NCBI GenBank assembly: GCA_964036195.1
Contig: OZ038454.1
Span: forward strand, 27,018,315-27,082,314
Length of the DNA: 64,000 bases
Direction: 5' to 3'
Origin: Sphaerolaimus hirsutus
Taxonomy: Eukaryota > Nematoda > Chromadorea > Monhysterida > Sphaerolaimidae
In this document: positions 27,328 to 59,535 of the stretch, one piece after another
How positions within the stretch are numbered: position 1 is the stretch's first letter
Layout: every line of letters starts with the position of its first letter
Position numbers and translations under genes: made by a program
The notes under the pieces: generated by a model
What the model saw: only the letters and a program-made list of their open reading frames with translations
Database searches by the model: none
What the model was told of the DNA's origin: nothing

Positions 27328-27971
27328 CGACCACATCACTGGACAACCGCGGTGCATGGCTTGTCTGTAAAAGAACAGTGTGCAAGATGAACGATGAACC
27401 TCTTTAAATTTAAGAACACTTTTAAAAAACATGAGTTTCCACTTGAGTAGAACTACATAAATATTAAAAAGTTGAGTTTCTACTTAATGATGATTTTGCT
27501 GGGTAACCCGTACAGTAAATTTCAAACAAGAAGTGAAATGACTTTGAAAAGTCGAAAACGTTTTAGTGCATCCTTCCCACATGCCATGTGTATTTCACAT
27601 TCAACGTTTTACTTCTCATTTTTAATTGTTATATACTTGTCCACTTACGGAATTCAGGCCAGGACAAAGTTTTTTTATAGTTATGCCCAAGCCAGCATTT
27701 ATAAGCATTTACACAACACAATTCAGTTTTCGTATTTTTAAAATAGGTACGTAGAATACGTAGTGGCAGGGCAGGTAACGATGGCAAACCCCCTGGCATT
27801 TTTTCTTCAAGTTTAAAGTGTTTTTTCTACAAATGACTTTTCGAATTTTGATTTTTTTTCCCACAAAATTATTGCGTTTTCGAATATTTCTGCGGAATTT
27901 TAATGTTTTACGGCTTTCCAAGCTGTTACTGCGCACACATTTGCACAATTTCCGTTCTGCCGCTACGAATA
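27328..27971. other. Non-coding, nothing recognised
   Basis: AT-rich. The last four bases AATA (27968-27971) are the target duplication of the Gypsy element. Confidence 0.45.
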
Positions 27972-29900
27972 TGTCATGAATCCGTGTATTCAGCTGTTTT
28001 TCGATTACACGATTCACGAGGTTTTTTACCGCACTTTTCCCTCTATTCCCACTTCACCGGCCGCTTGCCGCTGCAGTGCACTGCACTGGGCCCGGGGGTC
28101 CAGGGTATAAATGCGTGTTGTAAATTTTAAGGAAACGTGTCCGAAGACGGTAGGTTTTTCAGAACGTGCGATGAACCACTCGGTGGCTCACGCTGTTCCG
28201 TTTCCCGCAGCACGCACAGCACTTACACTCAGCATAAGCAGCGCAGTAATTAGAGCAGTTGTTAATTAGCTAACTAAGGGGAAAAGTTAGTACTTAGTGC
28301 CAATACAAAAAAGGGGGTCCAAGTTGGGTTGAGAAGAGAGTTTATTTTTTGGGCGATGGAAGAACAGTAGCGGCAGAGTAGAAACAAAATCAGCTTACGT
28401 CGCATCGACGAAGTTGGGGGAAAAAACAATTTCGGCTACTTATAAGGCAATCAAGACTACCATAATTGACTTGAATAAAAAGCAAAAAGGACATAAAATT
28501 GCGAAGTTACAAAGTCACTTTCAAATCACATAAGCTCTGATGTAAGCACTTAGTAAAATCGTACGTAACGCAGCTGCTTATGAGAAGAGTACTAATTAAT
28601 ATCAGCTAACAAAAGTACTTAAAAAGTTTCATGCGACATGGGGCTAAGCCTATAAGTTACAAGCTTATTCGGTGCAACAATTACTCACTTCCATAATTAC
28701 CTACAAATCCCTACTTAATATAAAACGACTTAAAACAGATAACAATGCAGTGCAACGCATTTTCACAAAAACAGAATGAACAAAGTACATACCAAGGCAA
28801 TTACGGCATCATAATCCAACACAGCAATTTAAGCTAATCAATAATTAGACAGCTAACACAAGCTTACAACTAATGTTAATTAATTAAGATACAGAACGAT
28901 TAATTAAGCTCGTGGGAATGAAAGGCATTGGCGTGAAACGACATGTACAATAATTTCTACATGTCACATGGAAACTTTGCTTGGGGGTTTTGTATTCATA
29001 AGTTACGGTAGCTAGAGAATGCTCGCGGGCGCGAAGTGCTTATCACCTCCAGTCCCGCGACCCACTATTGTGACTATCCGGTCAGCTAGCGCCCGTGAGA
29101 AAGGTTTCAGCCCGATGGCCACACCCTTCCGAGCGCGAGGAGATATTTATGCTAGGGCGGCGGAAAAGTATTTTTTGGACTGCGACTTGTCACTTGGGGC
29201 GTTATCAGAAGCTGTTCCTACCACCCACCGATACTAGATGACGCACGCCAATCTAGTCAACATGGGGAGGAACGCGGAACAGTGCTTTTGTATTTTTTTT
29301 GAGTGAAATTCATTGTTCCTGGCTTCCGGTCGCCACCTACCTATCAGCCGTCAGTCTCCGCCTCTGCCCAAAGATAAGTAAAGGGTAGAATGTGCTTTAG
29401 ACCGCCCAGAGAGTCACAACAGTGTGCCGGCGTGCCCAAAGGCGGCCACACGCCGCGCCGCGGCATTTCAAAGTAAAAAGTGTGAAATTCCCCTCTCACC
29501 TTATGCCATGTGGAATGCAGTTACGCCTAAACTAGACATAACCTAGCCGATTCGACTAAAATAGGTTTGGCGCACAAAAATAGTAATTAAGATTGGGGTA
29601 AGGGAACGAAATTGTGCAGAGCACTACAACCACTATAAAACATGGCGAACTCGGTCAGCCCATGTAGCGGCGTTGATCTTGCGATGCAGTGCTCTGACGG
29701 GGTACTGCGCAGCCCACTGCAGGGCTGTGCATGCCATGCAGTCCCCGTTGCCGTCGAAAAGCCGCCGTAATGTCTGAGAAAGTTTGCCCAAATTTAGTTT
29801 ACGAAATACATAGTAGTTTACGTTCCGTGAATTATTATTGCATTTGTTTGTCTAAAATTTTGTGGGGTGGTGTTTTTCCCATCGTAAAAACGCTCTTACA
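27972..29900 (-). repeat. 3' LTR of the Gypsy element
   Basis: 1929 bp, reading TGTAAGAGCG to CATGACA on the minus strand. AATAAA on the minus strand at 28346-28341 is a candidate polyadenylation signal. The 72-codon plus-strand frame at 29019-29237 is antisense and is not taken as a gene. Confidence 0.95.
28341..28346 (-). terminator. Candidate polyadenylation signal AATAAA in 3' LTR
   Basis: AATAAA on the coding strand of the element, also present in the other LTR at 44465-44460. Confidence 0.45.
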
Positions 29901-30495
29901 ACCCACCAGCCATTGCGGTTTACCTCCTGGCTAAACTATTGAGGTGTGACCGGTGATTATTTTTACGATCGCATGCACAAAATTTTTCGTTAAATATAAA
30001 AGTTGTTCATCTTTTCGAAATTTTCAAAAAGTGGTTGTTTGCATGCAAAATGGCTTGCGTATATTTCACAGTCGAAAATCAAATTCCGAAACGTGGCTGG
30101 CAACTACAGAAATGCAATAATAAGCTGAGAACGGTATGGGAGTTAATCAACTGCCCTGCCTTTTGCAGTCGTGACTTTATAATGGAATTGCCAATTGGGT
30201 TCTGGAGGTATTTCCATTTTCAAAATTATTTTACTCTTTTCAAATTTACAAAAACCTTGTTTTTTATTCAGAAAAGTGCCAATTTTGGACGGTCAACTGG
30301 GGGCGGTGGTTACGTTCTTCAATTCGGGGGGACAAAATGCGGCCATTCGGTGCCGCAGCGAACGTCTTGGAAACTATTTGGTGTGTGATTTCGAGATACT
30401 TGGTTAATTGTTTTGTTTGTTTCACTGTTGGTTATAGTTTCCATTACGTTATTAGTTTCCAAAAAACTTTCAAAACAAAAATGTCCGGGGTTCAC
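29901..30495 (-). other. 3' untranslated region of the Gypsy element
   Basis: Lies between the helicase stop and the 3' LTR. The polypurine tract just upstream of the LTR is weak (ATGGCTGGTGGGT). No coding sequence supported. Confidence 0.5.
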
Positions 30496-33400
30496 TCAAA
30501 CTCCCTCGTCAGTGCCCTCCATCGGCACGTCTTCTTCGGCAGCAACCTCGGGCTGCATGTCGTCCTCTTTAGCCGGCGCCGGCGCAGCGACCGCCACGGG
30601 TTCATCGGGCTCGATGTCGCCGTCGGGGGCTAGCGGCGCCTCCTCTTCCGGTGCGGAGAATGTGGCGTCGTCGCCATCGCCATCGGAGGTGCTGGCGATG
30701 TCCTCGACCTCGTCCGTGGGGTCGTACGGCAGCGGCTCGTCCGCCGGCTGGGGCGCGTTTTGTACGTCCACGGGCTCGTCCATATTGACGTCCGGTTGGG
30801 CGAGCTCGGTCTGGACGGCTTCGTCGTCATCGTCGTACTGGTGCTCGGGGCAGTGGGCCTGTGGCCTCCAGTCGGGCGACCAGGTCCATATCCTGGATCC
30901 CCAGATTTTCTCTGCGTGGTACTGGTAAAGACCAGCCGAAGCGAATTCATACGAAAAGAAAATGTGGAAGAAGTCAGACCACAACAAGGTCTCCACGTTG
31001 GCCACCACGACTCTGGCGCAACGCGAGCGGGAGGTGGCCACGTTTCCACGCTCCAGCTGAGCCACAAAGCCGACTCGAGTGGTCTGCTGGGAATACTGGG
31101 TGGTCAACCTGTCGCGCGCGGGCGGCTCGCTGCTGCGCACGCATGACACGATGGTCACCTCAGCTTCTCTGGCTTGCGCCTTGTCGGCGGTGAGCACTCG
31201 AGTCGCCCAGAATTCTCGCCCGTAGTGCTTCAACGACGGGTCGGTTGCCAATTTGTCGATCAGCGCGCGCTGTTGCGCCGCATAAAAAGTGACCACCAAA
31301 ATGGCATCCGCCCGACTCAAATCACTCCAGGGCACGCCGCCCTGGTTCGCCAATTCGACAAAATGTTTAACCAACTGCACTACGATGAGCTGCTCGGGTA
31401 CGTTGACGGTCGACGTGCCCTCCTTGGTCTCCAGTCCGGTGTGGTTGATGACCGTGGACAGCGGGATCGGGACGTTGTCGCCCGGCATGCGCGGCAAGTT
31501 GTCGTCCCGGCACGGCGATTTCTGATGATAGGGGCGGAGCCGGCCCTCGTACGCCGCGTGCGAGTTGGCGTTGATCAGCTGGGGGTGCCCACGGAAAACC
31601 GTTTCCAGCCGCAGCAAGGGGCACATTTTGGACGCTGTGAGTCCATCAATCAAAGATGGAGAGGGATTAAGGAAGGGTTCAACCCATCGCTGGGTCTGAA
31701 CTTTGCGGGTGAGTTGCTTGCTGTCGCCGAACAGCAAGACTAAGCCGTTGTGGGGGAGCGACACGGGGTTCAACGCTGTGACCATGGAAATGTTCGTGGC
31801 GAGCGACGCCTCGTCCACTATCATGGCACAGTACCTGATGTGCTTGATGCGCACATCATGTGTCGAATCGACAGTCACGTGGATCTGTCCTGGCTGCAAC
31901 AAATCCAGAACGTACTTGTGCAGCTTGACGGTGCCCTTGGCGTACCTCCGGGCGGCCCGGCGCAGCACGCGGCCCCAGTCCGTGTCCTCGAGGTCCGGGT
32001 CGTTCACATCGACGCCCGTGCGACCCGCTACGATCTCGTCGTTGTCGTCGTCCCATTCTTCGTCGTCGTCCTCGCCAGTGACGACCAGGTGCGGCACCTT
32101 CTCCATTAGCGCCTTCATCACCTGCTGGGGGGTTTGATTGGGACCTGCGACGATGGAGTGCACGGTCTCGTACTCAGTTTTCACCGCCCAGTACTGGTCT
32201 ACCAGCTCTATCCACTGGGCGTCGATCCGCGCGACCGAGAAAGGGGTGTCCTGCGCTATTTTGTGCAGCGCGGGCAGGTCGTCTACAGCGAGGTCGCTGT
32301 AGACCTCCTGGGTTTCCAACAGGGGGCTCAGCACCCTTACAGCGAACGCCGCTCTCAATTTCAAATATTCGACGTACCCGGGCTCTTGCAGCATGTCCTT
32401 AACTTGTGCGGCGGGCAATTCGGACCACTGCTTGCGGCCCAGCAGCAGGCGGCGCACGGCATTGTGCACGCCGTCGCAGCCGGTGCGCTGCATGTTTTGC
32501 ACAGCGCGCCTAGCGCTCTCGTCCGTCGCCGAGTTGACGGTGCACGTGACGATGGTGGAGTGGTATTTGGCGTTGGAAGTGATGTCGGAGGAAAGGGTGG
32601 AATTACTGTCTGGAAATGGGCGACCATTAAACTGGTTGAAGTACAACGAGCACATGTACGCCACCTGGTTCTGCACAGTGGTCTTGCCAGTGCCGAACGG
32701 GGAGTCGCACATGAGCAACAGCGGCCACGCCAGCTTCAAGGCGGCTAAAACGGCCGCCAGGGTTTTCGCCTGGCCGCCCAACGGCTTGAACTCGCCGGGC
32801 TTACTCACCAGCAGTGCTTCGGACGTGCCCTGACGGATTTCGTCTTCTAGGGGCGCGGCCGTGGCGCGGATGTGCGACCACTGGGTGAACGTGTCGGACA
32901 ACCGATCATCATACACAATGGCAATGGCGATCTGGTCACCCAGTTTTAGGACATTGCCCAAGCGTATGTTGGACGGTCTCCAACCTTCGTTCAGGCGCTC
33001 GATAGCGCCTTGCAAAGAGCGCATGGTTCGCACATAGTTGGGCGACTCATTGGTGGTGCGCACCATGTAGTCGCCGTTCTCGAGCTCGGACGGGAGCGCC
33101 GCCTGGCTCAACTTCAAGTCCAAATTGCCCACAATTACAGCCCGCTCCGGACTTACCTCTAAGGTGGCCACTCGCAGTTGCAACTTTGGCTGCGTCGGGT
33201 CGGGCCTGTCGTCGTCGGGCATCGCCTTGGTCAACGTCAGCACCGACATCGGTCCGGCGCCGACCAGCAGCTGGGGTAGCGCGTTAATTTGCGCGTTCGC
33301 GCGTCTCTGCTGCTCGTCCATCTGCTCCTGCTCGTCGTTGACGGCGTCGGCCAGGTCCGGCCTGTTGATCGTGATGCACGCCTTGGTACCTGCGTCGGTC

Positions 33401-34500
33401 GCTTCCCACTCAATTAGCGCGCGCACCGCCGTGGCGCGTGCCGCTCGGAAACGCAACAAGGACTCGTGGTACATGTATGCTGCGGCCAGCATCACGTACT
33501 TGGTGCGCAGGTGCGGCGGGTGCACCCGGTTCAATTCCACCTCGTGGGGGTCGTGGAAGTAAAAATCTTCCAGCGCCGATTTTTCGAGCAAGAAAACGCC
33601 ATACGCATGCGCGTAATAGACGTTGTCAAACACGTCGTTGTTCAGGTCGTGAAACTCGACGTGTGCAATCCCCAACATACCTGCACTCGGGATCAGGTTG
33701 CCGGGCATGGTGTATTCGCGGTGGGCGAACGCCAAGCGCTCCGGGCCGCAATCGTTGCGTTCGCCCGCGCCCAACTCTGGCAGTTCCTTGTAGCGGCGTG
33801 GCGTGAACGCGACGCGCAGCCTTAGCAAGCGCCAGTTCGTTGAGTAGCGCTGGTAGCCGACCTCGTCGCGCTGCGCGTCGTACTCATTGTCGGCCGGGGC
33901 GCGTCCCTGTACGGTTACGACGACGGGCACTGCCACCAATAGGGGGCTAGCGCTTTTGTTCATGTCCAATTTAATGTCAAAGAACTCCCAGTAGTCGGGC
34001 TTGGCAGTGCAACGCTGCACATACCTGGCCGTAAACTTCATACCGTGTCTGACAAGCGGCAAGTGCAGCTCCGGGCCGTACTTCTCGTTGACGCTGGCGT
34101 ACTGCGCCACCACGACCGACGTGCGGCGGTCGCGGGCGTTGCGCGCGATGTTGGTCGAGTAGGTGAAGAACGGGTACACGTTGTCGGCGTCGTTCCATTC
34201 GTCGTTCTCGGCCAGCTCGGCCAGCGCATCATCGTGAAGCCGCACGTGGGCTTGGTAGTACTCCCGGTCTGCAGTGTCGTGTCTCCAGTAGACACGGTCC
34301 ACCCAGCCGGCGAACATTCGCTTCGCGTAGACGGGCGGCGGGGGCCGCTGGTTCTCTCCCCACTGGTGATCCACCTTGGGGGGCGGTATGGTGGCGCCCG
34401 GTTCGCCACGTTGGGTGGTGGCTTTCGTGAAGCCCGAGCCCGCGGTGCTGGCGCGCCGGCCATTGTGCTGCCGTTTGGCGCCCATGCTCCTTCCGGCCAT
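30496..34500 (-). CDS. UPF1-like superfamily 1 helicase encoded by the Gypsy element
   Basis: 1334 residues from a true ATG. All SF1 helicase motifs are visible in order: Walker A GTGKT at 603-607, motif Ia TIVTCTVNSATDESARR at 649-665, Walker B VDEAS at 895-899, motif III FGDSKQLTRKV near 924-934, motif IV ETVFRGHPQLI near 966-976, motif V TADKAQAREAEVTIVSC near 1104-1120 and motif VI VGFVAQLERGNVATSRSR at 1143-1160. Pattern and spacing are UPF1-like (SF1B), so ATP-driven 5'-3' unwinding of RNA or DNA is expected. Residues 1-570 are not recognised. A long acidic segment occurs near 810-830 and the tail after 1220 is strongly acidic. The ORF lies between integrase and 3' LTR, 261 bases after the pol stop, and is visibly more GC-rich than pol. 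Expression may need a spliced or internal transcript. The helicase call is firm; its role in the element is unknown. Confidence 0.93.
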   Translation of the reverse strand: MAGRSMGAKRQHNGRRASTAGSGFTKATTQRGEPGATIPPPKVDHQWGENQRPPPPVYAKRMFAGWVDRVYWRHDTADREYYQAHVRLHDDALAELAENDEWNDADNVYPFFTYSTNIARNARDRRTSVVVAQYASVNEKYGPELHLPLVRHGMKFTARYVQRCTAKPDYWEFFDIKLDMNKSASPLLVAVPVVVTVQGRAPADNEYDAQRDEVGYQRYSTNWRLLRLRVAFTPRRYKELPELGAGERNDCGPERLAFAHREYTMPGNLIPSAGMLGIAHVEFHDLNNDVFDNVYYAHAYGVFLLEKSALEDFYFHDPHEVELNRVHPPHLRTKYVMLAAAYMYHESLLRFRAARATAVRALIEWEATDAGTKACITINRPDLADAVNDEQEQMDEQQRRANAQINALPQLLVGAGPMSVLTLTKAMPDDDRPDPTQPKLQLRVATLEVSPERAVIVGNLDLKLSQAALPSELENGDYMVRTTNESPNYVRTMRSLQGAIERLNEGWRPSNIRLGNVLKLGDQIAIAIVYDDRLSDTFTQWSHIRATAAPLEDEIRQGTSEALLVSKPGEFKPLGGQAKTLAAVLAALKLAWPLLLMCDSPFGTGKTTVQNQVAYMCSLYFNQFNGRPFPDSNSTLSSDITSNAKYHSTIVTCTVNSATDESARRAVQNMQRTGCDGVHNAVRRLLLGRKQWSELPAAQVKDMLQEPGYVEYLKLRAAFAVRVLSPLLETQEVYSDLAVDDLPALHKIAQDTPFSVARIDAQWIELVDQYWAVKTEYETVHSIVAGPNQTPQQVMKALMEKVPHLVVTGEDDDEEWDDDNDEIVAGRTGVDVNDPDLEDTDWGRVLRRAARRYAKGTVKLHKYVLDLLQPGQIHVTVDSTHDVRIKHIRYCAMIVDEASLATNISMVTALNPVSLPHNGLVLLFGDSKQLTRKVQTQRWVEPFLNPSPSLIDGLTASKMCPLLRLETVFRGHPQLINANSHAAYEGRLRPYHQKSPCRDDNLPRMPGDNVPIPLSTVINHTGLETKEGTSTVNVPEQLIVVQLVKHFVELANQGGVPWSDLSRADAILVVTFYAAQQRALIDKLATDPSLKHYGREFWATRVLTADKAQAREAEVTIVSCVRSSEPPARDRLTTQYSQQTTRVGFVAQLERGNVATSRSRCARVVVANVETLLWSDFFHIFFSYEFASAGLYQYHAEKIWGSRIWTWSPDWRPQAHCPEHQYDDDDEAVQTELAQPDVNMDEPVDVQNAPQPADEPLPYDPTDEVEDIASTSDGDGDDATFSAPEEEAPLAPDGDIEPDEPVAVAAPAPAKEDDMQPEVAAEEDVPMEGTDEGV

Positions 34501-34761
34501 GTTACGTTTTTAAGTTTTAAGGAAGAGTGCAATTAATCACAATCAATCACCGGCACTGCAGTGGACTCTCGGAGCCCACTAGTGTACCAGCGAATTACAA
34601 CCGCACTCACACGCACACGAACACGCAGTCACACGCACTTGGGATCACAAGTTTGTCAAACTTACGTGATGAGGGAATTATTCGAATTACGGGAACACAA
34701 TTAATTAGTTTGTTCAGTGGCTACGTCGATAGCCACTTAAGGGCTTTACCGCAATGAGAGT
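34501..34761 (-). other. Spacer between pol and helicase
   Basis: 261 bases with a CACACGCACACG simple tract. It may contain a splice acceptor or internal start for the helicase message; none could be fixed by eye. Confidence 0.4.
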
Positions 34762-37545
34762 CTAAGTAGGGCCGAGATTCTGCGTACAGGTGGGGATAAT
34801 GTTTTCAAGCGTTGGTTTACAGCGATCCGCATGCACTACATAAATCTTATCATTAGTATCATTATAAATAGTTACAAGCGGATGAGCATAGCGAATGCAT
34901 TCGTAGGGGCCTAAAAAGAAAGCAGCAAATTTTTTACAAGGGCCGGTCTGATCGGTCAAGCGCGGAGTGAAAATACGAACTGCTTGGCCCGGCTTCAAAT
35001 TCAAATGGCGGGCGCGGCGATTGGCGTAGTATTGCTCTTTCAATTGAGCATTCCTAAGCGCGGTATGCGCCGCATTGCGCGCCGCCGAGAGACGCTGCGC
35101 GAGCTCGGTGGGTTCACCGTGCTTATCTGTCGACTCGGGTAGCATTGCGCCAGGCGCGGGGGGCGTCAACATTCTTTCCCATAGCGACGCGGCTGGGCGC
35201 CCAAACAAAAGTGCGTACGGCGTGGTGCCCATTGCCGGGTGTTTCGACGTATTGTACGCATGCACCGCGGCGCCTAAGTGGTAATCCCAATCGGAATGAG
35301 TTTGGTTCACGTAATGGGACACGATTTCCATCAGAACACCGTTTCGGCGCTCCACCATTCCGTTGCCTTTTGGCATATACGCAAATGAGCGATGCTGAAG
35401 GGTATTGAAATACAATAACAATCTTTTGAATGCCCCTTCGACAAAGCTTGGCGCGTTATCGCTCAAAATGGCGCCGGGTACGCTAAATGTGGGAAGAATG
35501 TGTAGCAAGAATGCAAATGCTACAGTATCCTGCCGGATATCGGGTACCGGAACAGCGATACCAAATCGCATGCACTGGTCAACGAAAACCAACACGTGTT
35601 TATGCCCGCGCCGCGTGCGTGGCAGCGGGCCAACGGCGTCGACTGCGATGACATCGCCGGGAGATCGCGCGATTTTCCGGCACGCCATCAAAGTCTGCAT
35701 CGACTGCCTGAGTCCTTTTCGCGCACAACACAAAGGGCACGTGGCGACCCAATGTGCGCTTTCAGGGCGCATATTTGGGAACCACGCAAATTCCTGTAAT
35801 CTTTCGAAAGTTTTCATTATTCCCAAATGTCCCGCTGTAGGGTGATTGTGTGCTAGTTCGAATACTAGCGGGCACAGTGAGGCTGGAATACACACAGGAT
35901 CATACAACTTGATCCCCGGTACTATTGAAGCCTCAGCCCTTTTTCGCATGATTCCATATTGATCAATGAAAAACGGTGGCACACATTGTCCAGGTGCATC
36001 CTTACAAACTTCCATCAAATTCACTATATACGCTTCTTGCATCTGCAAGCGCTTCAATTCAATTATGGGGACAAACGGGGGCAAAACGTGATCAGTGTGA
36101 AAACCGTTGACGCGCACTTCGGTAGCCGCGGGGCCACCAGCCATTGTTTGTGGACCTACGGTAGTGAGTCCGGTAATTGGCTCCACCCCATTGTTCGCCG
36201 GCTGTCGCGTGTCCATTGTCCCAGGGTTGCGGTCACGCGCCACAGACTCCGCCCTCGCACGCGCGCGTGTCCTCATTGGTTCCTTGGTAGGCGCGCGTCT
36301 GGAAACAGTAGCTACCGTATCCCACGGGTCAATTGCGGTCTGCGTCGCGACAGTTTTGTTGTGCGATATTTTAATGAGTGCAAATTGCTCAAATGCCTCG
36401 TCAAGTTCCAATTTCTCGTCGAAAGTTATTGGCGCATCGCGCCTTCGGGACAGAGCATCTGCGAGCTCATTGCATTTTCCTTTCAAGTGCTTGAATGTAA
36501 TTTGATACGGGGCAATGGCCAACGCAAACTTATGCAATGCGGCGTGTGGTGTAGCTTCCAAATTGGGGTTTTTCACCCAAGGGATACTTTTGGCATCAGT
36601 CCACACTTCAAAGGGGCGTCCCGCCAGGTAGCAATGCCAATTTCGAACGCTCTCAAAAATTGCGTAAGCCTCTAGAGTGATGGCGGGCCATCTGCTCTGA
36701 ACCTCTGTCAACTTCCGGCTGTAGAAAGCGCACGCATGCAGTCCAGATTTTTCATCGGCTCGCTGCACCAGCACTCCGGCGACCGCAATTTGTGAAGCGT
36801 CTGTAATTACGATGAACGTTTTACCTGGGTTCGGATATTGCAAACAGGGGCTGTGTAATAAAATTTCTTTTAATTGGAAGAAAGCTCTCAGAGCCTCAGG
36901 GTTATCGTTGAGATCTACCGGCGCATTTCCATCGTAGTTCTCGCGCGGACCGGTGCGTGTCAAATTCGATAGCGGCACTGCTATTTCGGCGCACCTGTGT
37001 ATCATGCGTCTGAAAAATCCCACTGCTCCCAAAAACCCTTTGACTTCCTTGACAGTTTTCGGGAGGGGCCATTCTGAGATAATATTGCGTTTGTCCATGG
37101 GAATGCAAATGCCCTCACGGCCGATCATAAAGCCCAGAAATTTTACCGCAGTGATGCGTGCGAAAAAACACTTACGGGGACTAATTTTGAAGTTATTTTT
37201 GATCAATCGATCCAAAATTTGGCCAATGTCACTCAAATGGGTTTTCCAATCCTGACTGTAAATTAACAAGTCGTCAATGTACAATAGCACATTGCGATGA
37301 ATCAATCCCGCCATTGCAAGCTCAAAACACCTTTGTGCCAAACTTGGTGAGCATTTTAATCCCATAGGTAATCTCTTTAATTGGAATTGACCAAAAATAT
37401 TACGGAATGAAGTGATGTGTCTGTCGTCGGGATGCAGTGCAATGTTATAGAAAGCCTGATTAATATCGGCACTGCTAAAAAAACTTGCAGTTGCTGAGTG
37501 CATCCACGGTGTCATCCAGCCTCGGCAATGGAAATTGCGGCGCAT
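34762..37545 (-). CDS. Gypsy pol: RT (continued), RNase H, integrase
   Basis: 927 residues as an open frame; the true entry is by frame change at the T run 37483-37477, not at the ATG at 37545. RT: FFSSADINQAFY near 22-33 (catalytic Asp) and YIDD at 89-92. RNase H: VITDAS (Asp249), LEAYA (Glu292), WTDAKS (Asp317). Integrase zinc region: His568, His573, Cys603, Cys606; catalytic triad Asp636, Asp696, Glu732 with the typical 35-residue spacing between the last two. Order RT-RNase H-integrase and the sequence style place it in Ty3/Gypsy. A Thr/Arg-rich linker (about 400-480) separates RNase H from integrase. The stop is followed by the helicase ORF on the same strand. Confidence 0.93.
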   Translation of the reverse strand: MRRNFHCRGWMTPWMHSATASFFSSADINQAFYNIALHPDDRHITSFRNIFGQFQLKRLPMGLKCSPSLAQRCFELAMAGLIHRNVLLYIDDLLIYSQDWKTHLSDIGQILDRLIKNNFKISPRKCFFARITAVKFLGFMIGREGICIPMDKRNIISEWPLPKTVKEVKGFLGAVGFFRRMIHRCAEIAVPLSNLTRTGPRENYDGNAPVDLNDNPEALRAFFQLKEILLHSPCLQYPNPGKTFIVITDASQIAVAGVLVQRADEKSGLHACAFYSRKLTEVQSRWPAITLEAYAIFESVRNWHCYLAGRPFEVWTDAKSIPWVKNPNLEATPHAALHKFALAIAPYQITFKHLKGKCNELADALSRRRDAPITFDEKLELDEAFEQFALIKISHNKTVATQTAIDPWDTVATVSRRAPTKEPMRTRARARAESVARDRNPGTMDTRQPANNGVEPITGLTTVGPQTMAGGPAATEVRVNGFHTDHVLPPFVPIIELKRLQMQEAYIVNLMEVCKDAPGQCVPPFFIDQYGIMRKRAEASIVPGIKLYDPVCIPASLCPLVFELAHNHPTAGHLGIMKTFERLQEFAWFPNMRPESAHWVATCPLCCARKGLRQSMQTLMACRKIARSPGDVIAVDAVGPLPRTRRGHKHVLVFVDQCMRFGIAVPVPDIRQDTVAFAFLLHILPTFSVPGAILSDNAPSFVEGAFKRLLLYFNTLQHRSFAYMPKGNGMVERRNGVLMEIVSHYVNQTHSDWDYHLGAAVHAYNTSKHPAMGTTPYALLFGRPAASLWERMLTPPAPGAMLPESTDKHGEPTELAQRLSAARNAAHTALRNAQLKEQYYANRRARHLNLKPGQAVRIFTPRLTDQTGPCKKFAAFFLGPYECIRYAHPLVTIYNDTNDKIYVVHADRCKPTLENIIPTCTQNLGPT

Positions 37546-40500
37546 GCAAAACCAAATTTAATCGCCTGTAATCAATGACCATGCGTTTAGAACCGTCAGG
37601 TTTAGAAACAACTAATGTGGGAGCGCAGTATGGGCTTGTGCTTGTTTCAATTATGTCGTGTTCAATTAGACAGCGCAGGTGCTTTTCCAAGTATTGTTGG
37701 TCATCCAGGCTCAACCGATACATGCGGCACGCAATCGGTTTTCGATCGGTCAATTGCAGTCGATAATCAACTAATTCGCTGTACCCTATGTCGTACTTAT
37801 GTCTCGCAAAAGCGCCTTTGTGCTTCAAAAGTACGGCTGCAAGTTCCTTGCGCTCATTTTCTGACAATGTTTGGGGCACAGAAAATTCCATTTCGTGTCC
37901 ATCTGGACATTTCACATGCAATGGCTCACCTAATTGGTCTTCAATTACTTTTTCTGGAACGCTTGAAGATACCGGCTCTGTTGCTTCGTTGGCGCGGCAC
38001 TGCCGTATCCATTCCTCCGGGGGGTCGCCGGCTTTGACTTTCAGAACACAATCGACGGGCTCAACCAAGCCGATTTTTTGTTCCATCTGCAAGGTAACCG
38101 GTTGATCACGCACGTTTGCGACCCTCATTAGAAACACCTCGTCACTTGTTTCATATGCTGCAGATGCAGCAACTACCCCATCCTTCAAGTTTACGGATTC
38201 CAGCCCAGTGACCGTAAATGTGCGATAGCTAACTGGAGCTGATAGGCGCACCGGCACCATTGCTTCATGCCTTGCCTTGATTTCGGTAGCCGCTGTGACT
38301 AATGCAAACACTGCACGAATCTGCACGTCCGGCTTGTGGTTATCAAAGGGAATGCTAACGCCTACTGAGGGGATTTTTAACAGGCGCGCGGGCATATCAA
38401 TTATCATGTGCCGCAGCACATCCGCGCCCAAAATTAAATTGTCAACCAGGCCATCGATGGCTTGAAAGACAACACGAAACGTGTGTCCCCCTATGTCAAT
38501 GGGCATTTCCAACTGACCAATTATCATTAGCTTGGAATCCGCAGCGCATCGCATGTGGGAAATGGGAGAAGTTTCTTCAACGGCGTCGTGTCCATGTCGA
38601 TGCTCCTGGAACACGTCTCTGCTGCATAACGAGCGCATGGCGCCGGTGTCCAGCAAACATCTGTGGTACATGATGCCGTCCATGCACACGGGCACTGCAG
38701 GACTGTAGTAGACATGCACAGGCCCGTTCCGCCTCGCGACGACAGACTTTATATTTTCCTGTTCATCTTTTGATAGCGTAATCATTCTGATTCTCTCCAC
38801 CGATGGGCTCATGGAAATTTCCGCCATTTCTAATTGGTGATTATATTCAATTGATGGGAACATCTGTACCGTTACCGTGTCATCTGATGCGCGCTCGGAC
38901 GCACCTGTTGTCGGATTCAACACGGTCAATCGGCCGTCATAGCTTTTCATAAAGCTACGCTTACCTGCGTCTCTGTGTCTGGTAATTAGCGGCCTCGACT
39001 CCCGTCGCAGTCGTCGGCGCGCTCGTTCAATTAGCGTCGCAGCTGCCGGGGGCGCGGCGGCTAACAGAGCTGCTAATAAATACTGGCAAGTCACTATGGC
39101 GCACACCAGGTAAATCCATATCTGCAGCCATGACCTTAAGGCGTCAAAATCCCAAAATCCCACGCTTACCATTGACCTGGCCATTAATCGATGCGATTGT
39201 AAACTGCCATCAACCGCATGCGTCGGCATTCCATGCACGCGCCGCACAATCGCGTATGAGTGCCACACGTCGTTCAGCGTGGTGGTCGGCAGCAGCTCAG
39301 ACAAATTGTACATTGTCGTTGCGGCAAAGATCTGATGGTGCACATCCGTCGGTCGTTCGAGCTGCCACCTGTGTGGGAAACTGTGGGTGTTGTAAACGGG
39401 GATATGTTCCAGGGCGCCTTTCTCAGGTAAATACTTGTACCACTGCCCATGCAATTTCAACACACGGTTGTGGCGATTTGTGCACGTTCCCATAACCGGC
39501 TGGAACAGAAGGGCATTTGTAATTGTATCCAAATGCAAGGTCACATTCTGTCCATGCAATTTCATTCGTATTGGGACCGTAGCGTGGCACGCGCCTTTAC
39601 CTGTTTCGGTGCCCAACTGATAAGTCTTTACCGCAAAGCACTTATGCACTAGAAATCCGTCTGGCGCCGCCTTGGCCAATATCTCATTGTCGCGCATGTA
39701 CCAGCGCGCTGTGGTCGTCGGGTGCTCGGTCATGGCTAAGCGGAGAAGTTCCTGAAAGTGTTGCACATGCCTACAAGTAGACACGGCCTGTGCACGCATA
39801 GTTTGCTCAGATGTCTCGTACACCGCTTGCATCGCGGCGGCCAAGTGACCGGTGTCCACTACGCCAAACCCAGGGCATGCTGTGCGACGCTTTTCCCTCA
39901 CATACCTAATTGGGGGGATTTCGAACGGTGCTACAACAATATCCTGGTCTGATTTCCATAATTTTTTACCACATGAAATGATTTCTTCTTTTGCTCGAAA
40001 TGACAATGCCAAAGTGTGATCACGCGCGAGCCAAATGTCTTGTCTAATTAGCCCAGCTATTTCTTGCCATTTCTCATAGGGGCATTCAGCCTTTGGATTT
40101 GGTTTCCAGACTAATTGGCTACCGTCGGGTAAGGTACAGGTGCCCTCCTCGTAATTACACTTTGACACTTCTCCTAACGTACTTTGCATAACCTTGGCGC
40201 CATAGCGCATGCGTACATCTCCCTTAAATAACCCACACTGCGGGGTCTTGGTAATTAACCAGCTGCAACAATACAGCCCGTGCCCCGAATAACTTACGTT
40301 TGTCGGGTATTGAGTGTCCCATGCGTTGCTCAGCTCGTCCACTGGCTGAAGCGCGCCGTCGTTGCACTTATGGTATTTCATCATGCTCTCACACTCCGAG
40401 GGATCTACCGCACGCGGCTGCGAGTCAAAATGTTCCAAAGTGACGTCACCCCAGAAGTTCTGGTATGTATGAGCCGACCGCGTGGCCGCTACACATCGAT

Positions 40501-43500
40501 ACGCAGTGGCACGATACTCTACCATATTGCGTTTGTAAATAGTAAGTTTCAGGGGAACCGGTTTAGTCAACGACACAGCAGAATCGACTAACGCGGTGCA
40601 GTTGGGCAGGTCGGGGTAGGTGTACAAGTCGTAATGATCGGTCAGGTCGCTGCACAGCAGTGGCGTATCCGGCATCGTCGTGGCCACCGCCAAAGGCATC
40701 AAGCTCAAGCACGCCATCACCACGGCGATGGTGAACACTGTAAACAAAGCGCCAAAGACTTGATTATTATACGGTGGCTCAGAATACGCTCGCTGGCGAG
40801 GCACTGCGGACGTTTTGTCTCTAAATTCGGCCATTTTATCAACGCATGTGCTCGAAAACGTACGCGGGGACAAAATCACCGGGGGCTCATTTAGGAATGG
40901 GTCTAATGGGGCGTCACGCAAAACCCTCCACTCGATTCTAGTAAGCGTATCATTGTGGTCGTCATGCGGGCGACAGTCTGGGAGCACCACACAATCTTCA
41001 TCCTTCAGATCATGCATTGCAGTGCGCCGCAGATAATCTAACCAACTGGTACGAAATAGGATTGACGTGGCTTCGCGTTGATACGCCCAGTGGCTAATCC
41101 ACTGTTCCCGATCTACCATGAGCGCGTGCATTTTACACTGAAGGCTAGCTACAGGTTGCTCCTCCATCTCCTCCTCCTCGTCAGGGGCTTCCGGTTCCAG
41201 CCCTTGCAATGTCAATAGTTGATCATGATGGAAGAGAATTCTAGCATAAGACGGCGGTGACTCGGTCACGGCCTTGTAAGTGCATTCACCCACCTGTGTC
41301 ACTGTCGTCGGGTTCAACAGCGGCACGCTGCTGCTCTGGCCTTGCTGCGATTCCAACGGCCGTTGTGCCGGTTGTGGCTGCGGGTGCCATCCGATGGCCG
41401 CGGGCTGCTGGCTCTGAACGTACACAGGCTGCATCATCTGCGAGGAAGGCACGGTCATAGGCTGACTTAATTGCATCGGTACCCATCCACCTGGATACCC
41501 AAAGTTTTGTGGGTATTGTCCTCCCTGTCCACGGCCTCGCCCTCGGCCGCCACCTCTACCGCGCGCACGAAAGTCGCCTCCGCAGCCACGCTGATTGCTA
41601 TCGTTGCCGGCAGATGGCTCGGGAGGGGGCTTATTTGGACATTGGTAGCGAAAGTGATCAGGAGATCCACATTCCCAACATCCATTTTCAAACCTTTTGG
41701 GCGGTAACTCACGCCTCGGGCGCGGTGCACCCATCATCTTAGCTTCCTGGGCGTCGAGTTTTTTCTGTCGTTCGTCGAGCGCCCGTTCCTTGGCCTTGAG
41801 CTTCGCATTCTCGGCACCCTCTGCCTCCATCGACTGGACCGAGGGGTGCAGGTTCATGGCCATGATGCGCTCCATGACCTGGTTCGACGTCTCGGCGACG
41901 ATCTCGCTGGCCGACTTCGCATGTTCCTTCTGAACGGTTTCAAGGTTTTTGTAGCTTTCTTGCATGCGCGCATTATCAACTAATTCCTTCCAGCTTATAT
42001 TGGCGTGCACCGCCAGGTTGCGTCTAATGTCCTTGTCCAACCCCTGGTGAAACTTAGTGATGCACATGCCTTCCCTTTGGGCGGAATGCAGCATTGGATA
42101 GGCGCGCTTTACTGCACGTTCCAATCTAGTTGCCCAGTCCAGCACAGACTCAGTGGGACTTTGAGTTGACTCAATAAACTCGCGCTGTGCATGATGCTGG
42201 GCGTTTGGGTTTGCAAACAATTCTTCCAAACGATCCATCATGGCTTTGTAATCGAGTGCGCGCAGTTCCCGCCTTCTAGCTACAAAAATAGAATTGGCAT
42301 TCTTTTGTAAGAAGATAGGCAGCAACTTTTGCCTAGAGCGCATTGACACACCTAGCGCATCGCACAAAATATCCCACTTACGTCTCCAATCCTTGAAACT
42401 CTTGTCAGCCCTTCCAGTGAATGCATCGCACTGCGTAGCCAGGGCGGTCAGCGTAGCGGCCGTGCCGTGCGGCACCTGGTGCTGTGCCAGATAGTCTGGA
42501 TCCGTAGGATTAGGTGCAGGTGAAAGCGATCCTGACGATCCTGGGGAGGAGGGACCCGGCTGTCCCGCCAAATTGATTACACTGGTAGCTGGTTGAGCCG
42601 TAGCGTTTGCAGGCGCAGGTGCCGCTCCACTGCCGCCCGCTGATCCGCTTACACTCGCCGGCGGGGGCACAGTCTGCGCGGTTGTGTTACCAGGGGCCGT
42701 TCCCGCGCCTAAGGTAGCATTAGCTGCCGATGCAATGGGTGGAATTAATCCCCTGTTAGAACAAAACGCCAAAAATTGAGTTGTGGCCTGCTCCAACGCG
42801 CTGGGGTTACCTACGCTGGTGTACATACTTAAACCTAGCCTAATGGCCTGTAGCTTATTTTTATCTGCTGTGGAAGCATTGACTGAAATCGCCGCTGGTC
42901 CCGCGCGGTTAAGTTCCCCAGACCACTGGTGCAATAGTTGTATCATGCCCGGGAAGGTCCAACCTTCTCTGGTGTACCCAGTGGTTTCCCTGCCCGGGTC
43001 CGCCGCGGTCGCCGCCGTCAGGATCTGGCCCGGCGTCACTTGGTTTGCCGCCGCCGGGGTAGTCGTCACCGTTGTGAGCGTGGCCGGCGCGGTCGTCACA
43101 CTCGAACCTGGGGGCGGAGTGCTAGTCATTCTACTTTGATTTATGGGAGACGGTCCTACGATTCTACGCCGTGCTCTATTCGAAGAGACACAGCTTTCAA
43201 TCGAGCCTTGCGCAGATGCAAGCTCACGTGGTGTGGAAGAACTTCGCGGGGCACTTAATTGAAGCTCCCCCAATGAATTTTCCGCCTCTTCGAGCTCTTC
43301 GGCTAACGAGGGAAATTCAATATTTATATCTGGGATCGCTACTGGGGTGTCAATTAGATTTACGGAAGTCTCACCACTTCTACGCTGGTATGCAGACGAA
43401 CTCACGGGCTCGTCTTCACCAGCGTACCCTGCTGAATCAGCCTGTGATCCAGACCCTGTCGACACCGGGGAGCTACGGCCGCTTTTTCCCCACGGTCGTC

Positions 43501-43984
43501 GAAATAAACCCCACTTACTTGATTTCCGCTGCTCTCGCCCGGGCTCAGCACTTACTGGCCTGTCGGGTCGCAGGAGCGGACTATCTGGTGGGCGTTCTGT
43601 TTCTGTGCCTCCACTGGACGCTCGTCGAGCCGCCCCAGTCGGTAGCGCACCTGGCGCGCAAGCCGGCGTATCCCAACGGCTGCCGCCTGTTCCTGCACGT
43701 GCAATTCCAAATTGCAGCACTGGCCGGACGACGGGAGTGCTATCCTCTGTGCGTCTGGTCCAAGTCGCTGCTTCCTGTGCGCGCTCGGCTTCCGCTTCCG
43801 CTTCCTGCGCACCTGCTTCAACTCTTACCTGTTCAACCTCAGCGTCCTGCGCGTCCGCAGTCTGCTGTGCCCTGCGCAAAGCCGCTTCTCGGCGCGTGCG
43901 CTTCTGTAGCTGTTCTGCAGCTCTCCACACTTCCTCAACTGACCCTGGGATCGACGCTGGCCCTCCTGACCGCAGCGTTTCCAC
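37475..43984 (-). CDS. Gypsy gag - envelope - protease - RT N-terminus in one frame
   Basis: 2169 codons, open from about 44008. Gag: coiled coil about 23-76, Pro/Thr-rich linker, capsid-like region about 500-690, CCHC knuckle CWECGSPDHFRYQC at 769-782 and RG-rich tail 805-822. Envelope: hydrophobic signal/anchor at 1076-1103, Cys-rich ectodomain about 1104-1615 with AYRC at 1161 and NFWGDVTLEHF at 1176, four Asn-glycosylation sites, transmembrane segment about 1618-1645, then a basic RRRLRRESR tail. Protease: LLDTGA (Asp1779) and ILGAD at 1851. RT start after 2075, with ending CKFF before the stop. The codon at 43984 is GTG and the first in-frame ATG is codon 286 (43129), so the start is unresolved. 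An envelope between gag and protease is unusual; in Ty3/Gypsy errantiviruses env is normally 3' of pol. Confidence 0.9.
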   Translation of the reverse strand: METLRSGGPASIPGSVEEVWRAAEQLQKRTRREAALRRAQQTADAQDAEVEQVRVEAGAQEAEAEAERAQEAATWTRRTEDSTPVVRPVLQFGIARAGTGGSRWDTPACAPGALPTGAARRASSGGTETERPPDSPLLRPDRPVSAEPGREQRKSSKWGLFRRPWGKSGRSSPVSTGSGSQADSAGYAGEDEPVSSSAYQRRSGETSVNLIDTPVAIPDINIEFPSLAEELEEAENSLGELQLSAPRSSSTPRELASAQGSIESCVSSNRARRRIVGPSPINQSRMTSTPPPGSSVTTAPATLTTVTTTPAAANQVTPGQILTAATAADPGRETTGYTREGWTFPGMIQLLHQWSGELNRAGPAAISVNASTADKNKLQAIRLGLSMYTSVGNPSALEQATTQFLAFCSNRGLIPPIASAANATLGAGTAPGNTTAQTVPPPASVSGSAGGSGAAPAPANATAQPATSVINLAGQPGPSSPGSSGSLSPAPNPTDPDYLAQHQVPHGTAATLTALATQCDAFTGRADKSFKDWRRKWDILCDALGVSMRSRQKLLPIFLQKNANSIFVARRRELRALDYKAMMDRLEELFANPNAQHHAQREFIESTQSPTESVLDWATRLERAVKRAYPMLHSAQREGMCITKFHQGLDKDIRRNLAVHANISWKELVDNARMQESYKNLETVQKEHAKSASEIVAETSNQVMERIMAMNLHPSVQSMEAEGAENAKLKAKERALDERQKKLDAQEAKMMGAPRPRRELPPKRFENGCWECGSPDHFRYQCPNKPPPEPSAGNDSNQRGCGGDFRARGRGGGRGRGRGQGGQYPQNFGYPGGWVPMQLSQPMTVPSSQMMQPVYVQSQQPAAIGWHPQPQPAQRPLESQQGQSSSVPLLNPTTVTQVGECTYKAVTESPPSYARILFHHDQLLTLQGLEPEAPDEEEEMEEQPVASLQCKMHALMVDREQWISHWAYQREATSILFRTSWLDYLRRTAMHDLKDEDCVVLPDCRPHDDHNDTLTRIEWRVLRDAPLDPFLNEPPVILSPRTFSSTCVDKMAEFRDKTSAVPRQRAYSEPPYNNQVFGALFTVFTIAVVMACLSLMPLAVATTMPDTPLLCSDLTDHYDLYTYPDLPNCTALVDSAVSLTKPVPLKLTIYKRNMVEYRATAYRCVAATRSAHTYQNFWGDVTLEHFDSQPRAVDPSECESMMKYHKCNDGALQPVDELSNAWDTQYPTNVSYSGHGLYCCSWLITKTPQCGLFKGDVRMRYGAKVMQSTLGEVSKCNYEEGTCTLPDGSQLVWKPNPKAECPYEKWQEIAGLIRQDIWLARDHTLALSFRAKEEIISCGKKLWKSDQDIVVAPFEIPPIRYVREKRRTACPGFGVVDTGHLAAAMQAVYETSEQTMRAQAVSTCRHVQHFQELLRLAMTEHPTTTARWYMRDNEILAKAAPDGFLVHKCFAVKTYQLGTETGKGACHATVPIRMKLHGQNVTLHLDTITNALLFQPVMGTCTNRHNRVLKLHGQWYKYLPEKGALEHIPVYNTHSFPHRWQLERPTDVHHQIFAATTMYNLSELLPTTTLNDVWHSYAIVRRVHGMPTHAVDGSLQSHRLMARSMVSVGFWDFDALRSWLQIWIYLVCAIVTCQYLLAALLAAAPPAAATLIERARRRLRRESRPLITRHRDAGKRSFMKSYDGRLTVLNPTTGASERASDDTVTVQMFPSIEYNHQLEMAEISMSPSVERIRMITLSKDEQENIKSVVARRNGPVHVYYSPAVPVCMDGIMYHRCLLDTGAMRSLCSRDVFQEHRHGHDAVEETSPISHMRCAADSKLMIIGQLEMPIDIGGHTFRVVFQAIDGLVDNLILGADVLRHMIIDMPARLLKIPSVGVSIPFDNHKPDVQIRAVFALVTAATEIKARHEAMVPVRLSAPVSYRTFTVTGLESVNLKDGVVAASAAYETSDEVFLMRVANVRDQPVTLQMEQKIGLVEPVDCVLKVKAGDPPEEWIRQCRANEATEPVSSSVPEKVIEDQLGEPLHVKCPDGHEMEFSVPQTLSENERKELAAVLLKHKGAFARHKYDIGYSELVDYRLQLTDRKPIACRMYRLSLDDQQYLEKHLRCLIEHDIIETSTSPYCAPTLVVSKPDGSKRMVIDYRRLNLVLHAPQFPLPRLDDTVDALSNCKFF

Positions 43985-44070
43985 CCGGCGCGACAGATCG
44001 TTTGTTACTTATCACTTAACGGCTTGGCGTTGATCAGGCGCCGCACCGTTCACTGAAGTGAATTAAGCTA

Positions 44071-44087
44071 ACCACTCGCTGCTACCA
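44071..44087 (-). promoter_or_regulatory. Primer-binding site of the Gypsy element
   Basis: Three bases after the 5' LTR, TGGTAGCAGCGAGTGG would pair with a tRNA 3' end finishing ...CTACCA. The tRNA (perhaps Leu-type) is not assigned. Confidence 0.6.
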
Positions 44088-44090
44088 AGT

Positions 44091-46018
44091 TGTCATGAAT
44101 CCGTGTATTCAGCTGTTTTTCGATTACACGATTCACGAGGTTTTTTACCGCACTTTTCCCTCTATTCCCACTTCACCGGCCGCTTGCCGCTGCAGTGCAC
44201 TGCACTGGGCCCGGGGGTCCAGGGTATAAATGCGTGTTGTAAATTTTAAGGAAACGTGTCCGAAGACGGTAGGTTTTTCAGAACGTGCGATGAACCACTC
44301 GGTGGCTCACGCTGTTCCGTTTCCCGCAGCACGCACAGCACTTACACTCAGCATAAGCAGCGCAGTAATTAGAGCAGTTGTTAATTAGCTAACTAAGGGG
44401 AAAAGTTAGTACTTAGTGCCAATACAAAAAAGGGGGTCCAAGTTGGGTTGAGAAGAGAGTTTATTTTTTGGGCGATGGAAGAACAGTAGCGGCAGAGTAG
44501 AAACAAAATCAGCTTACGTCGCATCGACGAAGTTGGGGGAAAAAACAATTTCGGCTACTTATAAGGCAATCAAGACTACCATAATTGACTTGAATAAAAA
44601 GCAAAAAGGACATAAAATTGCGAAGTTACAAAGTCACTTTCAAATCACATAAGCTCTGATGTAAGCACTTAGTAAAATCGTACGTAACGCAGCTGCTTAT
44701 GAGAAGAGTACTAATTAATATCAGCTAACAAAAGTACTTAAAAAGCTTCATGCGACATGGGGCTAAGCCTATAAGTTACAAGCTTATTCGGTGCAACAAT
44801 TACTCACTTCCATAATTACCTACAAATCCCTACTTAATATAAAACGACTTAAAACAGATAACAATGCAGTGCAACGCATTTTCACAAAAACAGAATGAAC
44901 AAAGTACATACCAAGGCAATTACGGCATCATAATCCAACACAGCAATTTAAGCTAATCAATAATTAGACAGCTAACACAAGCTTACAACTAATGTTAATT
45001 AATTAAGATACAGAACGATTAATTAAGCTCGTGGGAATGAAAGGCATTGGCGTGAAACGACATGTACAATAATTTCTACATGTCACATGGAAACTTTGCT
45101 TGGGGGTTTTGTATTCATAAGTTACGGTAGCTAGAGAATGCTCGCGGGCGCGAAGTGCTTATCACCTCCAGTCCCGCGACCCACTATTGTGACTATCCGG
45201 TCAGCTAGCGCCCGTGAGAAAGGTTTCAGCCCGATGGCCACACCCTTCCGAGCGCGAGGAGATATTTATGCTAGGGCGGCGGAAAAGTATTTTTTGGACT
45301 GCGACTTGTCACTTGGGGCGTTATCAGAAGCTGTTCCTACCACCCACCGATACTAGATGACGCACGCCAATCTAGTCAACATGGGGAGGAACGCGGAACA
45401 GTGCTTTTGTATTTTTTTTGAGTGAAATTCATTGTTCCTGGCTTCCGGTCGCCACCTACCTATCAGCCGTCAGTCTCCGCCTCTGCCCAAAGATAAGTAA
45501 AGGGTAGAATGTGCTTTAGACCGCCCAGAGAGTCACAACAGTGTGCCGGCGTGCCCAAAGGCGGCCACACGCCGCGCCGCGGCATTTCAAAGTAAAAAGT
45601 GTGAAATTCCCCTCTCACCTTATGCCATGTGGAATGCAGTTACGCCTAAACTAGACATAACCTAGCCGATTCGACTAAAATAGGTTTGGCGCACAAAAAT
45701 AGTAATTAAGATTGGGGTAAGGGAACGAAATTGTGCAGAGCACTACAACCACTATAAAACATGGCGAACTCGGTCAGCCCATGCAGCGGCGTTGATCTTG
45801 CGATGCAGTGCTCTGACGGGGTACTGCGCAGCCCACTGCAGGGCTGTGCATGCCATGCAGTCCCCGTTGCCGTCGAAAAGCCGCCGTAATGTCTGAGAAA
45901 GTTTGCCCAAATTTAGTTTACGAAATACATAGTAGTTTACGTTCCGTGAATTATTATTCATTTGTTTGTCTAAAATTTTGTGGGGTGGTGTTTTTCCCAT
46001 CGTAAAAACGCTCTTACA
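44091..46018 (-). repeat. 5' LTR of the Gypsy element
   Basis: 1928 bp, nearly identical to 27972-29900. Minus-strand TTTTATAGTGG near 45745 and TTATAAG near 44560 are TATA-like candidates. Plus-strand TATAAA near 44226 could drive antisense transcription. Confidence 0.95.
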
Positions 46019-46379
46019 AATACACGATGTTTTGAATCGTTTTTATGCAGTTTATGCGCATTTTCAGCAAAAAATACTGAAAAAGGATCTATTTTTAAGT
46101 GTCTTTTTCTAGGGGTGAATGGAAATTCGAAAACTACATAAATTCGAAAATTCGAAAACGGTTTTAACTTTCAAAAATTTTTTGCCATCGTCGGCAGGTG
46201 CCTCGCATTTTAATTACGTCAGGACAGTTATGATGTGGGTTCAATCAACGATACTATACACTGTAAATGCTATAATTAATCATATCGCACACCCGCACGC
46301 TATGCACATTTGCCCTTTGCTATCTTCGGCGGACCGCAAAGTATGCGCCCAAAATTACTTATGTCTTTCGAAATAAGTC
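46019..46379. other. Flank of the Gypsy element, nothing recognised
   Basis: Starts with target duplication AATA. No supported gene. Confidence 0.4.
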
Positions 46380-46955: not shown

Positions 46956-47367
46956 TAAAACAGGGGGGGGGGTATTTCGAGGAGGGATTCATTTTTTTTG
47001 ACAGAATTTTTTTTAAATCACAGTACTAAATTGTTGTTTGTAACATACACAGACATCGAAAAATGCACCAAAAACCACCATATATAAGCCCTATAGACTT
47101 ATGAGTATACTCCGGTTACTTTACACCTTGCACGTGTGGCAGAGTTGTACAAATACTGGTATTTTTAGAAAACGTAAACGTAAACGTAAATACCTTTTCC
47201 AAATCAAAAGTATAAATACTAAAACGTAAGGTATTTTTAAAATACCAAGGAATACGTAAAAAAAAGCGTAAACGTAAAAATGTTTATGTGTCATATTTGC
47301 CGCTGTGATTTGGAAAATACCATTATTTTCACCTTTGGATGGGTCAATCGCTGATTTTCATGATATG

Positions 47368-49561: not shown

Positions 49562-49577
49562 TGGCGCAGCGAGCAGG
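49562..49577 (+). promoter_or_regulatory. Primer-binding site of the BEL/Pao element
   Basis: TGGCGCAGCGAGCAGG immediately follows the LTR end. The complement implies a tRNA with acceptor GCAGCGA and a G discriminator, which would fit tRNA-Ser. The tRNA assignment is inference. Confidence 0.7.
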
Positions 49578-59493: not shown

Positions 59494-59535
59494 CGTTGCT
59501 GCAACAACGGGGTGCAGCAATTCTTCCGCCCGGAG

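Follow-up and report, generated by a model that had tools for sequence, protein, structure and literature searches.

In a window of 64,000 nucleotides from the genome of the nematode Sphaerolaimus hirsutus (assembly GCA_964036195.1, contig OZ038454.1, positions 27,018,315–27,082,314), an 18,047-bp element bounded by long terminal repeats (LTRs) lies on the minus strand at 27972–46018, with the tetranucleotide TATT at both flanks. It includes a stop-free open reading frame (ORF) of 1334 codons at 30496–34500 that specifies a superfamily 1 (SF1) helicase, the ATG of which, at 34500, follows on the same strand the end of the integrase ORF at 34762. The helicase ORF belongs, as a regular component kept by selection, to a glycoprotein-bearing retrotransposon of the Ty3/Gypsy type that has been mobile recently, and in this one genome two large families have a UPF1-like helicase gene shortly downstream of the integrase. 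Rereading of the ORFs and LTRs bore out what the original prediction gave for the coordinates, the number of codons, the strand, the length of the element and the 4-bp duplication.

The assembly searched comprised 348 Mb. Only the best candidates were scored, so that all copy counts are lower bounds, and decayed copies of the family to which the window element belongs (family 1) are under-represented. Helicase sequence adjoined all 40 integrase copies scored (the best 40 of 392 candidates in a search with the integrase end); for 37 of these a listed helicase lay within 6 kb, and the other three were confirmed by reading 739–1199 nt of helicase. Four of the 41 helicase places had no integrase among the 40 integrase copies scored. 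With tblastn, the 35 helicase matches scored (the best 35 of 614 candidates) were all full-length and free of stops. The integrase end, helicase and 3' LTR were fetched for another 20 copies, those placed highest in a separate ranked list of 40; the order integrase, helicase, 3' LTR was kept in all 20, one of them (L017) matching the integrase end only partly, and the helicase frame was open in 21/21 copies read, the window copy included. The flanks past the 3' LTR differ among copies except in L017, where the sequence enters the leader of a second element. L016 and L017 (contig C9, about 24.53–24.55 Mb) are helicase elements in tandem, with identical helicases and apparently one shared LTR.

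Among 20 helicases of equal length (L021, which has a 6-nt deletion, was left out) nonsynonymous divergence (dN) was 0.0022 and synonymous divergence (dS) 0.0336, giving a dN/dS of 0.067 (codon bootstrap 0.046–0.092). The integrase end gave 0.068 (413 codons, 20 copies, without the partly covered L017) and the helicase core 0.046–0.048. Purifying selection on the helicase is as strong as that on the integrase, and the protein is nearly unchanged between copies. The 5' LTR was fetched for 12 other copies, and in seven of these the full-length LTR pair is identical (100%), which indicates that family 1 has been mobile recently with the helicase in place. The pairs of L010, L012 and L014 differ by 1–2 bases (in L014 over 1844 nt), that of L020 is 98.1% identical and lacks a matching duplication, and that of L019 is comparable over 287 nt only and is not fully covered for the duplication; a matching 4-bp target duplication is present in 10 of the 12. 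The original proposal that this element carries its own helicase is strongly supported by the 40 integrase copies, the 35 stop-free matches and the low dN/dS, and the possibility raised with it, that other copies would lack the gene, is contradicted by the same 40 copies.

A second family was recognized with the AAA_12 profile, which was run over the contigs and gave 150 scored places out of 454 candidates. Two were host UPF1 and 148 were others, judged by eye to be free of family-1 places. All four of the AAA_12 places that were fetched belong to a second element family, and the remaining 144 are tentatively assigned to it from their score and length; this family probably has about 148 copies, many of them decayed. 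A stop inside the AAA_12 domain was found at 1 of the 148 places. The family-2 helicase is 44–45% identical to that of family 1 (1220 columns), the pol end 62.5% (611 columns). In the four copies read the pol end stands directly before the helicase, and the one copy read beyond it continues with a priming tract and then the beginning of an LTR. The dN/dS of the helicase is 0.054 (4 copies); copy L052 has a decayed start. Since the helicase comes after the integrase in both families, it most likely predates the family split.

The presence of the SF1 motifs in an intact ORF between integrase and 3' LTR, another part of the original prediction, was upheld, motifs I, Ia, II, III, V and VI all being located. 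FG[TS]GKTT, DEAS, GDSKQL (motif III), FRGH and GNVATSR are conserved across both families. Pfam revealed an AAA_12 domain (E=2.7e-23) and a match to AAA_11 (E=4.3e-5) under the curated cut-off. The best PDB match of the single helicase sequence was UPF1 (2.6e-5). A two-family profile built without host UPF1 matched a SETX-type helicase (1.3e-8) and UPF1 (1.9e-8), and also NAM7 and SMUBP2; a profile including the host UPF1 exon was biased to UPF1 and was excluded from the ranking. Foldseek with an AlphaFold model returned yeast UPF1 (1.5e-11) and human UPF1 (2.3e-11), then Aquarius, SETX, IGHMBP2 and others, while the NCBIfam IGHMBP2 model gave 41 bits, far under its cut-off. By these profiles and the predicted fold the protein is a member of the Upf1-like SF1B family. 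UPF1 is at the top in PDB and in Foldseek, the latter with a weak model, and the SETX-type helicase is at the top by profile, so that the two are about equally near, with IGHMBP2 and SEN1 behind. The description UPF1-like accordingly stands for the fold and the wider family, of which UPF1 may or may not be the nearest member.

With the cellular helicases UPF1, SETX/SEN1, IGHMBP2 and ZNFX1 the element protein shares the helicase core and motifs. It differs from the cellular Upf1-like SF1B proteins in that it lacks a CH domain, has motifs I and II set about 290 residues apart and ends in an acidic C-terminal tail, and in being borne by a retroelement. The CH zinc domain of UPF1 was not found in family 1, which has 3 cysteines within the first 560 residues, or in family 2, with 7 in 545. 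Viral_helicase1 (PF01443) had no family-1 match at E<=0.1 and in family 2 only one of 0.058, under the cut-off; on this domain a viral SF1 helicase of the kind found in TRAS elements was rejected.

An ordinary host UPF1 exists elsewhere in the genome as a multi-exon gene; it occurs on two contigs, and its motif II is DESTQ, as is usual. Its exons on the two (L053 on C65 and L054 on C14) are nearly the same and perhaps represent alternative haplotypes. In a 12-row tree, in which one host exon was used and long branches were flagged by the tree tool, the element helicases form a clade apart from host UPF1 (100/100), with a long stem. That host UPF1 itself was captured recently was rejected, that gene being separate, diverged and multi-exon. 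The helicase core had no match in a protein database at E up to 0.001 (7987 scored candidates), nor the N-terminal part at E up to 10 (7994 scored candidates), and viral contigs yielded no relative; the profile that included the host UPF1 exon found six distant helicases in the protein database, one labelled bacterial. The helicase appears to descend from a cellular Upf1-like gene that was captured long ago, earlier than the split of the two families, and not from host UPF1 in recent times; its source may also have been viral.

The window element itself was classified by domain order and LTR features, both of which point to a Ty3/Gypsy-type (Metaviridae) LTR retrotransposon. In pol, RVT_1, RT_RNaseH and Integrase_H2C2 scored above the Pfam cut-off and rve (1.6e-6) below it, and the order is that of the Ty3/Gypsy group: protease, reverse transcriptase (RT), RNase H, integrase. 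The LTRs measure 1928 and 1929 bp, and their alignment has 2 mismatches and 1 gap; their TG...CA ends and the duplication of the window copy agree with the group, for which 4–6 bp is expected. Peptidase_A17 and DUF1759 were absent from the window element in the Pfam scan, and are present in a neighbouring BEL element. A Helitron was rejected as an identity, LTRs, RT and integrase being present and no Rep domain being found at E<=0.1 in the element's three ORFs. From the helicase ORF to the 3' LTR there are 595 nt, ending in a probable priming tract; this tract is identical in 21/21 copies read, and the only family-2 copy read at this point almost matches it. The features are collected in Table 1.

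Table 1. Features of the helicase-bearing element, in positions of the 64,000-nucleotide window.
Feature	Position	Strand	Remarks
Target-site duplication TATT, 5' side	46019..46022	.	
5' LTR (TG...CA)	44091..46018	-	1928 bp
Probable primer-binding site (TGGTAGCAG...)	44072..44087	-	presumably resembles the 3' end of initiator-methionine tRNA
ORF-A: gag, glycoprotein, protease, first part of RT	37475..44008	-	2177 codons stop to stop
Gag capsid, PNMA-like	42101..42412	-	E=6.4e-4, under Pfam cut-off
Monjiviricetes-type fusion glycoprotein in ORF-A, gag-protease interval	39347..40180	-	E=1.3e-6; 27.1 bits (cut-off 27)
Aspartic protease	38408..38665	-	E=0.004, under Pfam cut-off
Frame change inside RT	37475..37483	-	ORF-A ends and RT resumes in a different frame; probably a programmed frameshift
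Pol ORF: RT, RNase H, integrase, Ty3/Gypsy type	34762..37557	-	
Spacer, integrase ORF to helicase ATG	34501..34761	-	261 nt; possible splice-acceptor region
UPF1-like SF1 helicase ORF	30496..34500	-	1334 codons
Motif I / Walker A, FGTGKT (FGSGKT in family 2)	32680..32697	-	
Motif II / Walker B, DEAS	31804..31815	-	
AAA_12 domain, C-terminal helicase core up to motif VI	30994..31656	-	Pfam
Probable priming tract beside 3' LTR	29901..29924	-	
3' LTR	27972..29900	-	1929 bp, 99.84% identity with 5' LTR
Target-site duplication TATT, 3' side	27968..27971	.	

In both families the glycoprotein is encoded between gag and protease, in a single uninterrupted frame with them, instead of after pol, so that the helicase occupies the usual place of env. 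In the one family-2 copy concerned (L056, residues 395–652 of the frame) the glycoprotein has an E-value of 6.2e-7 and the order gag, glycoprotein, protease is the same. The class Monjiviricetes includes the chuviruses. The frame change inside RT recurs in 7/7 other family-1 copies read at that site (L041–L047; an eighth fetched piece, L048, did not match the region) and occurs at the same residue in both family-2 copies read (L055, L057), in which the T run around it is of different length. A defect of the window copy is ruled out by this recurrence. Selection acts on the pol frame downstream, so either translation or transcription must get past the change, which is probably a programmed frameshift at an unusual place. 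Neither the glycoprotein nor this frame change figured in the original prediction.

The neighbouring element, at about 47367–60219 on the plus strand, is of the BEL/Pao type and Anakin-like: it has one ORF of 2907 codons, the last part of which is a Monjiviricetes-type glycoprotein of its own that shares 22% identity with that of the helicase element. Its left end holds two occurrences of part of the terminal repeat, at 47752 and 48659. Elsewhere in the window are an open frame of 1034 codons (2581–5685, minus strand), with a GC content above that of the following sequence, and, between 7300 and 22600, numerous related G-rich/C-rich repeats (CCCCCCTCGAA...) in both orientations.

An SF1 helicase of the plus-strand RNA virus type, with its motifs kept, occurs in the TRAS and Jockey long interspersed nuclear elements (LINEs) (PMC5563155). 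These too are retroelements with a conserved SF1 helicase; they are, however, non-LTR elements with a viral-type helicase in ORF2 or ORF1, whereas here an LTR element has a separate Upf1-like ORF. The same source gives SF1 helicases fused to the RNase H or integrase of Copia in Aedes aegypti and Leptopilina boulardi. These likewise combine LTR element parts with an SF1 helicase, but are fused viral-type ORFs, described in that passage without a whole element, copy series or selection. The LTR elements of bdelloid rotifers have an enzymatic ORF3, a DEDDy exonuclease or GDSL esterase (PMC5408684), and so resemble the nematode families in an extra enzyme ORF beyond gag and pol that is common to diverged families; the enzymes differ, and the word helicase occurs in that paper only once, in the reference list. 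A spliced subgenomic mRNA is reported for the ORF3 of other LTR elements (PMC5408684). In Cer1 a novel extra protein, CERV, made from a spliced mRNA, is needed for export of the genomic RNA (PMC10309623). As an LTR retrotransposon with a further protein for its own RNA, Cer1 would be the functional analogue that we favour, although CERV is not described as a helicase. Anakin elements, of the BEL/Pao type, carry a chuvirus glycoprotein (PMC7642597). A captured viral-type glycoprotein in an LTR element is common to them and the helicase element, and the neighbour at about 47.4–60.2 kb looks like them; yet in Anakin the glycoprotein follows a BEL/Pao pol, and the helicase element has a Gypsy-type pol with the glycoprotein before the protease. 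An LTR element with a separate UPF1-like helicase ORF was not found in the literature searched, most subscription papers and Repbase being outside the search. Known, then, are SF1 helicases in LINEs and Copia fusions; what seems new is the separate UPF1-like ORF of an LTR element, for which membership in the element is well documented and the role is inferred.

The genomic RNA, the element less one LTR, would measure about 16.1 kb. A separate ORF with its own ATG past a 261-nt spacer suggests that the helicase is translated from its own subgenomic, probably spliced mRNA. The protein would bind the genomic RNA and clear structure or bound proteins from it, and the long RNA might thereby be exported, translated, spared decay or silencing, or copied through. 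The suggestion in the original prediction of a part in copying or expressing a very long RNA would fit. ATPase motifs conserved under strong selection argue for catalysis. To an ATP-driven RNA helicase that remodels ribonucleoprotein and acts on the element's own RNA of roughly 16 kb we would give an even chance. Several points weigh against this picture. The substrate and step of action are what we infer, several rivals predict the same sequence evidence, and the splice acceptor in the 34501–34761 spacer is only putative. The scored and fetched copies were the best-scoring ones, which overstates the intact share by an unstated degree; in family 2, the open frame reaches 1300 codons or more in 98 of the 147 rows entered in the frame-length count (147 of the 148) and is shorter in the other 49, so that about a third look decayed. 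The AlphaFold model is weak, with a mean predicted local distance difference test score (pLDDT) of 53 and Foldseek template modelling (TM) scores of about 0.3, and the searches of protein collections and viral contigs gave no close helicase relative outside the source genome. The SF1 helicase domains of insect elements have been judged accessory to retrotransposition (PMC6338049).

Among the rival explanations, an antagonist of silencing or restriction would strip or unwind host small-RNA machinery or double-stranded element RNA and so shield the element from RNA silencing or from host helicases of the MOV10/ZNFX1 kind. Transposon SF1 helicases weakly suppressed RNA silencing in a plant test (PMC6338049), the catalytic motifs are kept in both families, and between families the helicase diverges faster than the pol end (45% against 62.5% identity). 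The family-1 dN/dS, however, is as low as that of the integrase, with no sign of an arms race, and no domain is shared outside the Upf1-like core; we regard this function as rather unlikely. The original prediction had also suggested a UPF1 mimic, which would compete with host UPF1 and shield the multi-ORF RNA, with its long stretch beyond the first stop, from nonsense-mediated decay (NMD). UPF1 meets UPF2 through its zinc-binding CH domain, and with 3 cysteines in 560 residues (7 in 545 in family 2) the element protein has no room for this region; in addition the profile places it no nearer to UPF1 than to the SETX type, and a decoy would not need conserved ATPase motifs, which point to catalysis. 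Such a decoy is not supported, the CH domain being absent and host UPF1 lying elsewhere. The suggestion is weakened to the point of being decidedly unlikely, even though the predicted fold is Upf1-like, HTLV-1 Tax inhibits NMD via UPF1 (PMC5789848), retroviral full-length RNA has features recognized by NMD (PMC2925335) and a link to RNA quality control has been proposed for the TRAS helicases (PMC5563155).

There is a slim chance that the helicase instead enters the particle and works there solely alongside RT, on cDNA strands or structured template. The genome is long, the helicase adjoins pol, and nidoviruses pair long RNA genomes with Upf1-like helicases; SARS-CoV-2 nsp13 was among the Foldseek matches, from rank 42 on. 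As a separate ORF unfused to pol, however, it would need another signal for packaging, and other long LTR elements have, to our knowledge, no helicase. Gene capture by retroelements is common, and the ORF might be a captured host gene that hitchhikes without use to the element. With a dN/dS of 0.067 and 0.054 in two families, 35/35 scored matches stop-free and helicase sequence beside 40/40 integrase copies scored, such a passenger is very improbable, and a single transduced host gene is ruled out by the family-1 values. The chance that the assembly had joined an element to a helicase gene, a concern voiced with the original prediction, is negligible: the same neighbourhood recurs at 40 places on many contigs, the flanks differ in the copies read, and the arrangement is found again in a second family, which rules such a join out.

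The usual view is that LTR elements and retroviruses rely on RNA helicases of the host. It is conceivable, though on balance doubtful, that the nidovirus solution has been found independently here, a very long RNA, a frame change controlling polymerase output and a dedicated Upf1-like helicase that makes an RNA of such length workable being combined in a glycoprotein-bearing, reverse-transcribing lineage. On that reading a gag-env-pro-pol-helicase plan would here be met for the first time in a retroelement group. A lineage with its own helicase, under selection as strong as that on the integrase, offers a natural test of the limits to the length of retroelement genomes, and of the ways in which element RNA is exported, spared decay, or copied.

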